Shown here: positions 2,969 through 13,399 of the stretch, one piece after another
Layout: every line of letters begins with the position of its first letter
Position numbering within the stretch: position 1 is the stretch's first letter
DNA from: Chlorobium sp.
GTDB taxonomy: Bacteria > Bacteroidota > Chlorobiia > Chlorobiales > Chlorobiaceae
Reading direction: 5' to 3'
Length of the DNA stretch: 42,342 bases
Assembly (NCBI GenBank): GCA_005843815.1
Contig: SZYA01000092.1
Location: 1 to 42,342, forward strand
Program-made: the position numbers and the translations under genes
The notes under the pieces: generated by a model
Seen by the model: only the letters and a program-made list of their open reading frames with translations
Told to the model about the DNA's origin: nothing
Databases searched by the model: none

Positions 2969-4000
2969 CTACGAGAGCAGTGCGTTGAAGTTTCTGGCCT
3001 GACGACCCTCCCAGTTGCGTTTGTGCCAGGCATAGCCCGCAATGAGAGGCAACGCAATGGTAGCTTCAGCAAAGACCATCTGTTCATGAACAGTATCAAC
3101 CTTGCCCCATGAACTGGCCTCCTTGAGGGTTGAGCCTGAAAGGGCACCATCACGCTCATCGGCTACGGTGATCTGTACTGCATACGTGTGCATGGAGACA
3201 TTCTCGTGGCCAAGCACTTCGGCTGCCACCACAATGTCCTGGGTAAAGTTTTTTGGGACACCACCTCCGATCATGAAAATACCGGTCTTGTCGTTCTCAA
3301 TCTTGATTCTGGTCAGTTCACGAAAATCCTTGACCGAATCGATTGAGACATGTTTTTCGGGGTTATTCCACTGATGATGGACCAAACCAAATCCGGCAGA
3401 GCAGTCTGAAAATGCAGGACAAAATATCGGCACGCCCTTTATATATGCTTTATAGACAATGGAGTTTTTGTCGTGGTTATTTGCCTCAATGTATTTGCCC
3501 ATCTCCACAATAAATTCGCGAGAGGAGTAGGCCCCAGGCTCCATTGAGTTGGCGATAATGGCGGTGGTATCGTCACAGACGCGAAGATCATCTTCATCAA
3601 TATAGGTGTCGTAAATGCGATCAATGTGCAAATCCCTGAGAATGGCATCGTCCATAAACTGGCTTCCCTTGTAGTGACGGAAACCAAGCGCTTCAAAAAA
3701 GTCCTGGTCAACAATATTTGCGCCGGTGGAGACAATGGCATCCACCATATTGCTCTCAATCATGTCAATAACGACCTGCTTCAATCCTGCACTGATCAGT
3801 GAGCCCGCAAGGGTAAGAATGACCGCACACTCCTTGTCCTGCTGCATGAGATCAAGAATGGAGGCCGCTCGGGCAAGATTCCTGGCCTGAAACGCGGTGT
3901 CGGCCATCTGGTCGACAAATGGAACAATGTTCAGTTGCTTGATATCTATGTGGCAAACCGGCGCGCTCAGTAACTCCTCTTTTCTGAATCCTGTCGGCAT
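2969..4000 (-). CDS. Deoxyhypusine synthase-like protein
   Basis: Member of the deoxyhypusine synthase family (343 residues), which transfers the aminobutyl group of spermidine in an NAD-dependent reaction. The lysine that forms the imine intermediate in the eukaryotic enzyme lies in an SWGK context; here it is K300 in ASSWGK. Glycine-rich NAD-binding segments such as STGAN (91-95) and MIGGGVPK (243-250) are present. Bacteria generally lack the eIF5A substrate, and bacterial homologues are thought to make homospermidine or other polyamines instead, so the true acceptor is uncertain. The start is supported by GGGAGC four bases before the ATG. The gene lies just downstream of the SRP RNA on the same strand. 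Confidence 0.88.
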   Translation of the reverse strand: MPTGFRKEELLSAPVCHIDIKQLNIVPFVDQMADTAFQARNLARAASILDLMQQDKECAVILTLAGSLISAGLKQVVIDMIESNMVDAIVSTGANIVDQDFFEALGFRHYKGSQFMDDAILRDLHIDRIYDTYIDEDDLRVCDDTTAIIANSMEPGAYSSREFIVEMGKYIEANNHDKNSIVYKAYIKGVPIFCPAFSDCSAGFGLVHHQWNNPEKHVSIDSVKDFRELTRIKIENDKTGIFMIGGGVPKNFTQDIVVAAEVLGHENVSMHTYAVQITVADERDGALSGSTLKEASSWGKVDTVHEQMVFAEATIALPLIAGYAWHKRNWEGRQARNFNALLS

Positions 4001-4038: not shown

Positions 4039-4140
4039 AGAGAGTAAGCTGACTATATCACACACTCAAATCACCGGATGCTGCTTCCTTCCGGATCTGA
4101 CATGGTTGGGCAACTGAGCGTTGTATAGGACTTACTCTCT
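4039..4140 (-). ncRNA. ffs: 4.5S-type signal recognition particle RNA
   Basis: About 102 bases on the minus strand fold as a single hairpin. The ends AGAGAGTAAG and CTTACTCTCT pair, and the apical loop carries the conserved SRP core CCGGAAGGAAGCAGC close to the canonical GTCAGGTCCGGAAGGAAGCAGC. This RNA binds Ffh and guides co-translational targeting of membrane proteins. It has a good promoter upstream and a T-run at its 3' end. Confidence 0.95.
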
Positions 4141-9595: not shown

Positions 9596-9736
9596 CTTTT
9601 AACTCTCGATCATCAATGGTTCGAAAATTCAACAACCGTGCATACTTCCCTGAATTACAATCACTCCTCCCCTGCAGTTGTCATCAACATATAATGCCGT
9701 ATACCTGCTATCGGGGAATAATGAGAATATACTTTG

Positions 9737-9809
9737 TGGAGCTTAGGGGAGTCGAACCCCTGACCTTCTCATTGCGAACGAGACGCTCTACCAACTGAGC
9801 TAAAGCCCC
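9737..9809 (-). tRNA. tRNA-Ala (anticodon CGC)
   Basis: A 73-base cloverleaf on the minus strand. The acceptor stem GGGGCTT pairs with AAGCTCC and contains G3:U70, the alanine identity pair. The D-stem is GCTC/GAGC, the anticodon loop is TTCGCAA giving CGC, and the T-arm is AGGGG-TTCGACT-CCCCT. The discriminator is A and CCA is not encoded. Confidence 0.96.
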
Positions 9810-9916: not shown

Positions 9917-10462
9917 TCAAGCTCTCTCAGAAACAAGAGCCTCCTTGAGTTTACTAAGCTGGTGACTAATCGTACCATCGAAAATTGTGTCCCCAATTTT
10001 AACCGAAACACCGCCAATAAAAGCGGCGTTGGTGGAGGTATGTGCACGGACACGCTTTCCTGTATACGATTCAAGTTGAGCAACCAATTCAGCAGACTGT
10101 TGCTGAGAGAGGGCGACAGCACTGATAATATCGGCGTTGACAACTCCCATGCGCTCATCGTGGAGTCTTTGAAACTCGTCAATAATTTCCGGGAGCTGCC
10201 CAGCTCTCTTTTTTCTCGCGACCAGCCTTAAAAAAACGAACATTTGTTCACCAACAGAACCTCTGAAAATCTCTTCAAGTATCTTGATTTTCCTGTCCCC
10301 TTTTACAACCGGGCTCCGCAGCGTATGCGTTAGATCTCGGGAATTATGAAGAACCTCCTTGATCACCTCTAACTCTCCGACGATCTGATCAAGAAAATTC
10401 CCCTCCACTGCCGCAGTCAACAGTGCTGAGGCATATCGACGGCTTGCAATTAAACTTGACAT
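9917..10462 (-). CDS. atpH: F1F0 ATP synthase subunit delta
   Basis: A 181-residue delta subunit (OSCP family) that links the F1 head to the b-subunit stator. The start RYASALL and the C-terminal motif GGVSVKIGDTIFDGTISHQL are family hallmarks. It is the last gene before the terminator. The catalytic genes atpA and atpG, which normally follow, are absent, so they must be encoded elsewhere. Confidence 0.95.
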   Translation of the reverse strand: MSSLIASRRYASALLTAAVEGNFLDQIVGELEVIKEVLHNSRDLTHTLRSPVVKGDRKIKILEEIFRGSVGEQMFVFLRLVARKKRAGQLPEIIDEFQRLHDERMGVVNADIISAVALSQQQSAELVAQLESYTGKRVRAHTSTNAAFIGGVSVKIGDTIFDGTISHQLSKLKEALVSERA

Positions 10463-10475
10463 GTCGTGAGCGTTT

Positions 10476-11003
10476 TCAGTTACGTTTTGTTGAAAGATCC
10501 TGAAGCATGCTGTCCACTATCTTTCTCTGCATATCAGCATCAAGTGCATTTTTGATAATCTTTTCGGCCCCCATAACAGCAAGATCGGCAACCTCATTCC
10601 TTAAAACATCAAGCGCACGATGTTTCTCTTGCTCAATCGAACTTAAGGCTGCAGCAATCATTTTTTTCGACTCTTCCTGTGCCTTCCCGGTTATATCCGA
10701 ACGAAGTTTTTCGGCATATTCCTTTCCTTCGCGAATGATCTTGTCTGCCTCGGCATCTGCTTTGGAAAGAAGTTCCCTGTTCTTGCGCAAAATAGCCTCA
10801 GATTCATCCTTCGCTTGATGTGCACGATCAATAGAGGACTGAATCCCTTTTTCCCTCTCTTCCAGGGCGCTGATAATAGGGCCCCAGGCAATCTTCTTCA
10901 GAATAAGGAGGACAATGACAAATGTAACTGCTGTCCAGAAAATAAGGCCGGGATTCGGGCTCAAAAGATTAGCCTGAAGAAGAATAACTCCTGACGTAAG
11001 CAT
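10476..11003 (-). CDS. atpF: F1F0 ATP synthase subunit b
   Basis: A 175-residue b subunit forming the peripheral stalk. An N-terminal membrane helix (about residues 17-37, [18 protein letters not shown]) is followed by a long charged coiled coil ([16 protein letters not shown] onward) that dimerises and holds delta. The ATG at 11003 is preferred over an in-frame TTG six bases upstream. It lies between atpE and atpH. Confidence 0.94.
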
Positions 11004-11113
11004 GAACAATGTTTCCGTTAACGATTAATAAAGCCCGATTACGGCATCAGGTGTAGAATAATGCGGCAATCGGGATATCTCTCCTGTATCGAATCTGCAG
11101 ACCAATCCTGACC

Positions 11114-11341
11114 TTACTTAAGAGCAAGAAGCACACAGATAACTTCACCGAAAAGAGCAACACCTTCAATAAGCGCTGCGGCAATAATCATGGTGGTACG
11201 AATATCTGACGTAGCCTCTGGCTGACGAGCTGTACCCTCAGCGGCAGAAGCTGCAATATTACCAATACCAAGACCGGCACCAATAACTGCCAAACCGGCA
11301 CCAAGGCCTGCACCTAAATAAGCTAAACCTAAACCTTCCAT
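11114..11341 (-). CDS. atpE: F1F0 ATP synthase subunit c
   Basis: A 75-residue proteolipid of two membrane helices joined by the polar loop ARQPE (38-42). The ion-carrying carboxylate is E59 in AALIEGVALFG. The Q/ES pattern of sodium-type rings is not seen, so a proton ring is likely. GGAGG precedes the ATG by ten bases. High glycine content in helix one (GAGLGAGLAVIGAGLGIG) is typical. Confidence 0.96.
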   Translation of the reverse strand: MEGLGLAYLGAGLGAGLAVIGAGLGIGNIAASAAEGTARQPEATSDIRTTMIIAAALIEGVALFGEVICVLLALK

Positions 11342-11425: not shown

Positions 11426-12442
11426 TCAATGATGAGCGACTTCTGCGGCAAGCTCATCATGACCTTCATGAGCTGTAGCAAGGCCTATAAAGAGTGCTGA
11501 AAGCATTGTAAAAATAAATGCCTGCAGAAACGCTACAAAAAGTTCAAGCAAATAGATGAAAATCGAAAACGGAACAGAAACTGCTACCGCGACGATATAA
11601 CTCTTGAGAATAAAGCTTATAAAAATAAGGCTGAGTATCACAATATGGCCGGCAGTCATATTGGCAAAAAGTCGTATGGCAAGAGCAAATGGCTTGGTGA
11701 AAAGACCAATAACCTCTATAGGAATCATGATAATCCACAAAGACCAGTGAGTGCCTGCGGTCAAATGGACCAGAAAACCCTTGAGCCCATGAGCTTTCAA
11801 CGCAGCAACCTGGGTAATAAAAAAAGTAAATGTTGCCAAGGCAAGGGTAACGTTAATGTTACCTGTTGCTGTCGCGCCATAAGGAACCAGACCAAGGAGA
11901 TTGCAAAGTAAGATAAAGAAGAATACTGTAAGCAGATAGGGAAGATGCTTTTCATAACCATGCCCAATGTTCGACTTTGCCACATCAAGCCTGATAAACT
12001 CGACCAGCGCTTCAACAGCATTCGTCAATCCTTTTGGTGCCTGGCGGTTGGTCATCTTTTTATACTTGCCACCCACGAAAGCAAAGACTACCAAAAGAAT
12101 TGCTGACACAAGCCACATCATGACGACATGCTTGGTAATTGAGATATCAATACCCGCAACAGGTGCTATTTTGGGCAGCTCTATCTCTCCAAAGGGATGA
12201 AAAGCAAAAATATTACTGTCAAAGACATGATGCATTATTACATCACCCGCTTTTTCCTCTCCATGAGCAGAAGGCGCGCCATGTTCAGATGCGGCAACCG
12301 TACCGGAAACCACCTCTGCAGAAGCTTCAGGCGACTGGGCAGCAGCCACGCCAGAGAAACCGCCCGTATTGACAAGAAGAGCAACAAGGATCGCCATCAC
12401 CTTGACAAGAGACTTGGGATGTAAGACGTTTAACCGTTTCAT
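11426..12442 (-). CDS. atpB: F1F0 ATP synthase subunit a
   Basis: A 338-residue a subunit forming the proton half-channels. The essential arginine lies in [14 protein letters not shown]. It carries an N-terminal extension of about 90 residues that starts with a signal-peptide-like stretch ([17 protein letters not shown]) and continues with a low-complexity alanine/histidine-rich segment; most subunits lack this. The start overlaps the stop of the preceding unknown gene in an ATGA, implying translational coupling. Confidence 0.94.
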
Positions 12443-12825
12443 GCACTATTCTTTTTCTGTTTGTTTTTCTTTTGATAACCAAGAATTTCAACGATCACAT
12501 AAATACAGTAAAAAGCGAAAAATGAAAAGACAAAATCATTAACAACAACAAGATTTCTGACAAGTACCAGGGCAATTATCCCCATCATCAGAAGTAACCT
12601 TACGGTAAGACCGCCAAATACAAACTTCGTAAAATCTGTAGAGCTTTTCTCAATTGCATACTCAAAGAGCAGATAACCAATCACGGTATTAGAGACTACC
12701 ATCACCCAGGCAAGAAAAACCGAATAATAATCTGTAGTTGCGGACTCAAACGAGAAATATACTGCCCCCCATAAAATGACGGATAAGATAAACAACTTAA
12801 TAAAAAATTCAAACAATGGCTTCAT
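12439..12825 (-). CDS. Unknown four-helix membrane protein in the ATP synthase operon
   Basis: A 128-residue hydrophobic protein with four predicted membrane segments (about 7-26, 34-55, 66-87 and 96-115) and a lysine/asparagine-rich tail. I do not recognise the family; by position and topology it may be an analogue of AtpI/UncI, which helps assemble the c-ring, but I see no family motif. The start at 12825 (MKPLFEFF) is chosen because AGAGG lies eight bases upstream; a frame continuing to 12903 lacks such a site. Its stop overlaps the atpB start by four bases, and it follows atpZ by 46 bases. Confidence 0.75.
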
Positions 12826-12871: not shown

Positions 12872-13120
12872 TCACTTTCGTTTTGCGTTAGCTGTTCGAA
12901 CAACCTTCATCAGCACAAGCGCCATTCCAACCATTCCGACCACAACTCCCGCCAAAAGCAGTAATGGCGACGTACCAGCCTGAGTATCCAGCCAATAGCC
13001 AATAAAAACAAAAAAAGCAAAGCTCGCCGCTATCTGTAACCCAATTCCCATATAGTCGGAAACCGCACGAACCGAACGGCCAAATTTATCCGGAAACCTC
13101 TCATCATCAAGCATTACCAT
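12872..13120 (-). CDS. atpZ: AtpZ/AtpI-like ATP synthase accessory protein
   Basis: An 82-residue protein with two membrane helices (about 27-42 and 51-73) and the pattern GIGLQIAASFAFFVFIGYWLD, matching the AtpZ/AtpI-like F0F1-ATPase subunit family. These small proteins accompany F0 genes and are implicated in c-ring assembly or Mg/Ca transport. The start at 13120 is set by AAGGAGC six bases upstream; a longer frame to 13201 has no support. It is the first gene of the atp operon. Confidence 0.82.
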   Translation of the reverse strand: MVMLDDERFPDKFGRSVRAVSDYMGIGLQIAASFAFFVFIGYWLDTQAGTSPLLLLAGVVVGMVGMALVLMKVVRTANAKRK

Positions 13121-13173
13121 CGTCAAGCTCCTTACGATTACATTCAAACAAGCGCCCCGATCTTCAAGGAACA

Positions 13174-13201
13174 AATATATGCGGCAATGGCAACAACTCA
13201 A
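13174..13201 (-). promoter_or_regulatory. Candidate promoter of the atp operon
   Basis: On the minus strand TTGAGT (plus coordinates 13196-13201) and TATATT (13174-13179) are separated by 16 bases. They lie about 55 bases upstream of the atpZ start. This is a plausible sigma-70 promoter but not a strong one. Confidence 0.45.
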
Positions 13202-13206
13202 TTTGT

Positions 13207-13250
13207 TGGTAAAGATACGACTACTTCCTTAAATAAGGAATGCTTTACCA
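13207..13250. repeat. Nested inverted repeat between atpZ and pgeF
   Basis: Outer arms TGGTAAAG (13207-13214) and CTTTACCA (13243-13250) are perfect complements. Inside, TTCCTT-AAAT-AAGGAA (13225-13240) forms a second stem. The element sits directly upstream of the candidate atp -35 and in the promoter region of the divergent pgeF gene, so an operator or structured leader is more likely than a terminator. A further imperfect palindrome, TTTTGCAC-CTTAA-GTGCCAAAA, lies at 13328-13349. Confidence 0.55.
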
Positions 13251-13399
13251 CAGATTCTCTCTCATATTTAAAAGAGATTGATAAAAATCTTATTATTCAC
13301 AGGAATGCGAGCTTCAGAAATATCCAGTTTTGCACCTTAAGTGCCAAAACATGAAGCGTTCCATAGTTATTGATTTTTTAAAGAATAGCCAGGATACTC

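Follow-up and report, generated by a model that had tools for sequence, protein, structure and literature searches.

We report that the open reading frame between atpZ and atpB in the window (the whole stretch of Chlorobium DNA that was analyzed, 42,342 nucleotides) is very probably a strongly diverged AtpI/UncI ('subunit I') gene, which escapes the family models that were scanned, and that its product would serve as an assembly chaperone of the c-ring of the ATP synthase. The AtpI-like identity is the most likely one on account of a homology chain of sequence profiles, which leads from the protein to ATP-synt_I and Cg1360-type proteins. The chaperone role of the window protein is probable by analogy, given the position of the gene, its descent and what is known of the AtpI family. 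UncI/AtpI is described as a c-ring assembly chaperone in the consulted sections of two papers (PMC4154653; PMC4453477).

The gene is located on the minus strand within a block of Fo genes. In the direction of transcription the features are the following.

12872-13120, minus strand: atpZ, 82 amino acids (PF09527 ATPase_gene1, 47.6 bits against a cut-off of 26.6)
12439-12825, minus strand: the atpI-like gene, 128 amino acids from an ATG start, a predicted four-helix membrane protein with a basic C-terminal tail
12439-12442, minus strand: ATGA overlap of stop and start codon, read from the sequence
11426-12442, minus strand: atpB, ATP synthase subunit a (PF00119, E 1.1e-62)
11114-11341, minus strand: atpE, ATP synthase subunit c, the presumed client (PF00137, E 6.7e-18)
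10476-11009, minus strand: atpF, subunit b (PF00430, E 4.8e-32), given as the longest open reading frame; the true start may lie further in
9917-10462, minus strand: atpH, subunit delta, the last gene of the Fo block (PF00213, E 5.8e-49)
9736-9809, minus strand: tRNA-Ala(CGC), immediately beyond atpH

A sequence-only reading of this DNA had placed the frame between atpZ and atpB and had let it overlap the atpB start by ATGA. Both statements hold: the gene directly upstream is atpZ by its PF09527 match and the one downstream is atpB by PF00119, while the TGA of the atpI-like gene (12439-12441) and the ATG of atpB (12440-12442) share the four letters ATGA. The ATG start chosen in that reading is likely to be the right one, because the first methionine is conserved in at least 90% of an alignment of 48 Chlorobi sequences (called A3 below) and because the alternative TTG start at 12903 overlaps the end of atpZ. 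AtpZ, likewise a small membrane protein, is encoded in this operon by a separate gene, has only 82 amino acids and shows a clear Pfam match of its own. As an identity for the window protein it was tried and rejected, since PF09527 matches the product of the neighboring gene and does not match this one.

The frame is a real gene and not a chance open reading frame, because an intact copy without internal stop is carried by all 37 genomes of the genus, the source genome included, and by 12/12 genomes of the same order. A simple sequence search also found it in three of 12 genomes from elsewhere in the phylum. The nearest named relative, at 97% identity, comes from an uncultured Chlorobiaceae genome (locus L091), which assigns the window to a green sulfur bacterium.

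The position of the gene, whose conservation in Chlorobi and Bacteroidota the sequence-only reading had suggested examining, is kept. In 79/79 related loci from named records a stretch resembling atpZ ends not more than 400 bases upstream of the atpI-like gene, and in 77 of them atpB starts within 700 bases downstream; 59 of the 79 genes have ATGA at their end. Of the two loci without a near atpB, one is on a contig that stops 33 bases past the gene, and in the other about 1.7 kb separate the gene from atpB. The latter locus belongs to a Chlorobiales genome (G039, loci L037/L077; L168) in which other open reading frames, one of them resembling an OmpA-type protein by eye, lie between the two genes. 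A break of this kind is the sole case among the 79 named loci; locus L135 could not be judged.

The ancestral operon order has been inferred as I-sI-0A-0C-0B, where I stands for pfam09527 and sI for pfam03899 (PMC4154653, in the part consulted), and the window gene fits the sI slot of this order. Because the same slot is taken by E. coli atpI (atpI-atpB) and by the ancestral sI, the position counts in favor of the AtpI identity. The proteins are also alike in general build. AtpI/UncI is expected to be a short multi-helix protein of the inner membrane with about 100-150 amino acids; the E. coli protein has 126 residues, against 128 and four predicted helices in the hydrophobic window protein.

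The main functional rival starts from the same gene order. It accepts an AtpI homologue but lets it work mainly with AtpZ in the uptake of divalent cations (Mg2+/Ca2+) instead of in c-ring assembly. The constant presence of atpZ as the next gene upstream, in 79/79 loci, speaks for such a partnership, as does a report that AtpZ aids Mg2+ acquisition in alkaliphilic Bacillus (PMC4453477, in the sections seen); the reference list of the same article contains a 2003 paper whose title credits atpI as well. On the other hand, atpI-bearing operons without atpZ exist, in E. coli according to our own inspection and in B. subtilis according to the consulted part of PMC4453477, which argues that AtpI acts independently of AtpZ. 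Furthermore, nothing resembling a transporter was noticed in the sequence. We regard this reading as unlikely and keep the c-ring chaperone as the preferred role.

The identity of the protein is not apparent from the single sequence. Scanned alone, the window protein matched neither PF03899 (ATP-synt_I) nor NF053722 (the Cg1360 ATP-synthase-associated family) at E <= 10. The Pfam scan returned weak matches to the unrelated families DUF898, PrgI and Sbt_1, each with E about 0.02-0.04, and the best value in the NCBIfam scan was E 1.3. The gathering cut-off of PF03899, which is a detection threshold and not a biological feature, was not reached. The Chlorobi proteins as a group differ from AtpI/UncI in the same respect, scoring below PF03899 detection: none of the 48 members matched this model at E <= 0.1. 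A PF03899 search of the source genome, which is 90% complete, gave nothing at E <= 1, and the lack of a second match there was counted in favor of the AtpI identity. In NCBIfam the most frequent match of the Chlorobi members was the Cg1360 family, found by 19/48 at E <= 1 with a best value of 5.7e-4. Seven of the 48 matched LhaT and three matched Phage_holin_3_6 of Pfam (best E 8.1e-4). Single matches mean little at this level, because the best LhaT value (1.2e-4) is better than that of Cg1360.

The relatives elsewhere in the phylum are more informative. We built a profile (A1) from 26 sequences, of which 23 belong to the order and three to other parts of the phylum. The profile found a match in 267 of the 392 Bacteroidota genomes, with one place per genome among the matches listed. 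The other 125 genomes gave no A1 match, a number in which absence of the gene and excess divergence are not told apart genome by genome. From the A1 match list we picked 20 distant proteins (A5), which were not chosen for resemblance to AtpI. All 20 of their genes have atpB directly downstream. Thirteen of the 20 proteins had an ATP-synt_I match with E <= 0.1, the best of them at 2.7e-4; any other Pfam family was matched by one member at most. Fifteen of the 20 matched NF053722 at the same threshold, with a best value of 8.6e-9. A profile-profile alignment of A3 with A5 in hhalign gave a probability of 99.5% and E 3.1e-22 over 120 columns; this pair was run without a decoy.

The Cg1360 family is thus the most frequent NCBIfam match of the distant relatives as well as of the Chlorobi members, yet all of them stay under its 40-bit equivalog cut-off. 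NF053722 matched 29 of 296 Bacteroidota genomes at E <= 0.001 and the cut-off was passed in none of the 296; locus L049 scored 36.6 bits. Among 14 control genomes the model matched in Corynebacterium glutamicum only.

We also searched in the opposite direction, with PF03899 against the 392 Bacteroidota genomes. Forty-five of them contained a match at E <= 0.001, and only one of these (G340) is among the 20 genomes that contributed to A5. The curated cut-off of the model was exceeded in 18 of the 392. In 17 of these 18 the protein over the cut-off is encoded by the open reading frame directly before atpB, where the placement of locus L171, which is cut by a contig end, was judged from its coordinates. 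At least 10 of these 17 frames coincide with places found by A1, among the matches listed. Of the 30 PF03899 loci that were returned 29 were examined around the gene. In 27 of these atpB follows immediately downstream, the exceptions being L185 and L198; the one locus left, L055, is remote from atpB in its own genome. Some of the genomes that gave no A1 match were also inspected in the slot before atpB. An open reading frame of 122-134 amino acids occupies it in four genomes (G050, G053, G057 and G058), and G054 has no such frame there. The stretch before atpB looks different in two examined genomes, namely G054 and G039, in the latter of which other frames intervene.

On the evidence of this unbroken chain of profiles the window protein is homologous to proteins that exceed the ATP-synt_I cut-off. 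The sequence-only reading had proposed an assembly factor specific to this lineage. The first part of this proposal fits, as the protein groups with AtpI/UncI through its Bacteroidota counterparts; the second part does not hold, given the occurrence of these counterparts in the corresponding slot of other Bacteroidota genomes and the spread of the A1 matches over the phylum. The description of the protein as one of an unknown family stands for the protein scanned alone, which has no convincing match in Pfam or NCBIfam, but not for the group, whose relatives match ATP-synt_I and Cg1360. A significant profile match to AtpI, which that reading had named as evidence against itself, was likewise found for the group and not for the window protein alone.

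Direct comparison with E. coli AtpI gave a mixed result. In HMMER the profile of a set of 46 Bacteroidota proteins (set B), which may favor E. coli AtpI as 26 of its members were fetched for matching PF03899, scored 12.3 bits on the E. coli protein and exceeded all 1000 window-shuffled copies (maximum 10.9). In hhalign set B did somewhat better than the shuffles, of which 9/300 scored as high. The profile of the Chlorobi proteins was no better than the shuffles in either program, with 150 of 1000 copies as high in HMMER and 264 of 300 in hhalign. Since this direct comparison failed, the homology to AtpI rests on the chain through the other Bacteroidota.

These results bear on the possibility that an unrelated membrane protein, specific to Bacteroidota/Chlorobi, replaced AtpI as an analogous factor. 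Such a replacement would account for the failure of the Chlorobi members to match ATP-synt_I at E <= 0.1 (0/48) and of their profile to rise above shuffles with E. coli AtpI. It is opposed by the continuous profile chain, which connects the Chlorobi proteins to same-locus Bacteroidota proteins over the ATP-synt_I cut-off, and by the matches to the Cg1360 family, which go down to E 8.6e-9. We therefore consider a replacement highly improbable and return to a diverged AtpI as the preferred identity. Equivalence to AtpR (PF12966), which belongs to the sodium-type N-ATPase, is hardly credible: the gene does occupy the same slot after an atpZ/atpQ-type gene, but PF12966 was unmatched by A1 (26 sequences, E <= 1), A3 (48, E <= 0.1) and A5 (20, E <= 0.1), and AtpR is usually given three helices, against the four predicted here. 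In favor of AtpR, the Bacteroides fragilis gene order is similar to the N-ATPase one, although atpR is missing from it; against AtpR, the operon in the window contains atpH, which the N-ATPase does not have (PMC4154653, in the part consulted).

The AlphaFold2 model of the window protein has a mean pLDDT of 88.3 and a pTM of 0.80, with helices at residues 2-25, 33-57, 62-89 and 95-127. The four helices proposed in the sequence-only reading are borne out by this model. Both ends of the protein are probably cytoplasmic, as judged from the four helices together with the lysine-rich C-terminus. The predicted model contains three polar residues within the membrane, namely N46, R76 and E113. Their conservation was followed in an alignment of 46 Bacteroidota proteins (A4), in which the window protein stands beside 20 sequences selected with A1 and 25 selected with PF03899; residues that appear invariant in it lean towards these two profiles, by which the members were chosen. 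All 46 sequences have R76 in helix 3. At the position of E113 in helix 4 the acidic residue is Glu in 45 of them and Asp in one. N46 in helix 2 is found in 35 of the 46. In the hhalign alignment of the Bacteroidota profile on E. coli AtpI the Asn of helix 2 falls on Asn, and G-x3-R of helix 3 falls on G-x3-K. The arginine that is invariant here thus corresponds to a lysine in E. coli in this alignment, a difference from the E. coli protein.

Searches for related structures returned little. Foldseek gave 16 matches of the model in the PDB, none at E <= 0.001, and 66 matches among viral structures, again none at E <= 0.001. The best VIA-align result (Z 9.1) was to a designed helical protein and possibly reflects just the common arrangement of helical bundles. 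This lack of fold matches is no evidence for a new fold. In sequence searches of the PDB, A1 found only a 32-residue chain of cytochrome oxidase IIa (E 0.082) and A5 found nothing; neither E. coli AtpI nor A5 as query turned up an AtpI chain in these searches. E. coli AtpI (L090:7061-7441) had a sole match there at E <= 10, to VMA21 (8eau_p, E 0.018). The match is weak and may be due to chance, yet VMA21 is perhaps a functional parallel as an assembly factor of the V-ATPase.

Together with the knowledge of the AtpI family, these data suggest the following sequence of events. The gene would act from within the block atpZ-atpI-atpB-atpE-atpF-atpH as one for an inner-membrane protein, and its translation is most likely coupled to that of subunit a through the overlapping start. 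The protein would then help newly inserted c-subunits to form or to join the c-ring, and it is not expected to remain in the finished ATP synthase. The functional core of the protein may lie in the helix-3 arginine, which is invariant, and the helix-4 acidic residue, which is nearly so. One could speculate further that R76 binds the carboxylate that carries the proton in a free c-subunit, releases it once the ring has closed and pairs again with E113, its internal acidic partner. We think this distinctly unlikely. If it were true, AtpI would imitate the arginine of subunit a during assembly, and the Chlorobi/Bacteroidota branch, where the pair is nearly invariant, would be where to look for it.

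A similar role has been described for more distant proteins. Plant CGL160 is a distant relative of Atp1/UncI and is needed for efficient formation of the c-ring (PMC9806626, in the sections consulted). The membrane domain of CGL160 and the cyanobacterial Atp1 would share the presumed role of the window protein in c-ring formation, a likeness drawn from their description alone. CGL160 differs in having an extra N-terminal domain, which binds CF1 (same source, same sections).

The gene is essentially ordinary in kind, a divergent AtpI, and of modest use for correcting annotations. According to the consulted part of PMC4154653, ATPI is missing from many species and 'extreme sequence divergence' is one possible cause. 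In Figure 4 and Figure S7 the same paper presents loci and an atpI tree by lineage, where an sI gene may already be assigned to Chlorobi. In the open-licence literature no title was found on an atpI-like gene in Chlorobi or Bacteroidota. Operon surveys would gain a missing entry if the gene were annotated. The gene also offers a concrete case, in Chlorobi and in the other Bacteroidota examined, in which the usual atpI slot contains a gene that the family models miss or only just reach. The two polar intramembrane residues that are conserved across the phylum sample provide specific targets for mutations in AtpI.

A further gene is found near this block in related genomes. The order bactofilin-atpZ-atpI-atpB, with the bactofilin gene not more than about 3 kb upstream of atpB, occurs in 17 of 24 order- and phylum-level genomes (G037-G060), a total that includes G047 with no atpB search and no bactofilin match. 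Examples upstream of atpZ are L031:119-568 and L042:13-462. A bactofilin match over the cut-off is absent in 35/37 genomes of the genus of the window, and there is none at 13121-13399 of the window itself. A gene for the cytoskeletal bactofilin is thus tied to the ATP synthase block, and most of these green sulfur bacteria have apparently lost it.

Three other features were noticed in the window. The plus strand encodes at 1060-2796 a protein of 578 amino acids, which by eye resembles a secreted peptidase of the serralysin type and contains the zinc-protease-like motif HEIGHALGLSHP and glycine-rich repeats. On the minus strand a frame of 343 amino acids (2969-4000) resembles, by eye, the deoxyhypusine synthase family, and a bacterial small SRP RNA is found at 4039-4137 with 64.6 bits.
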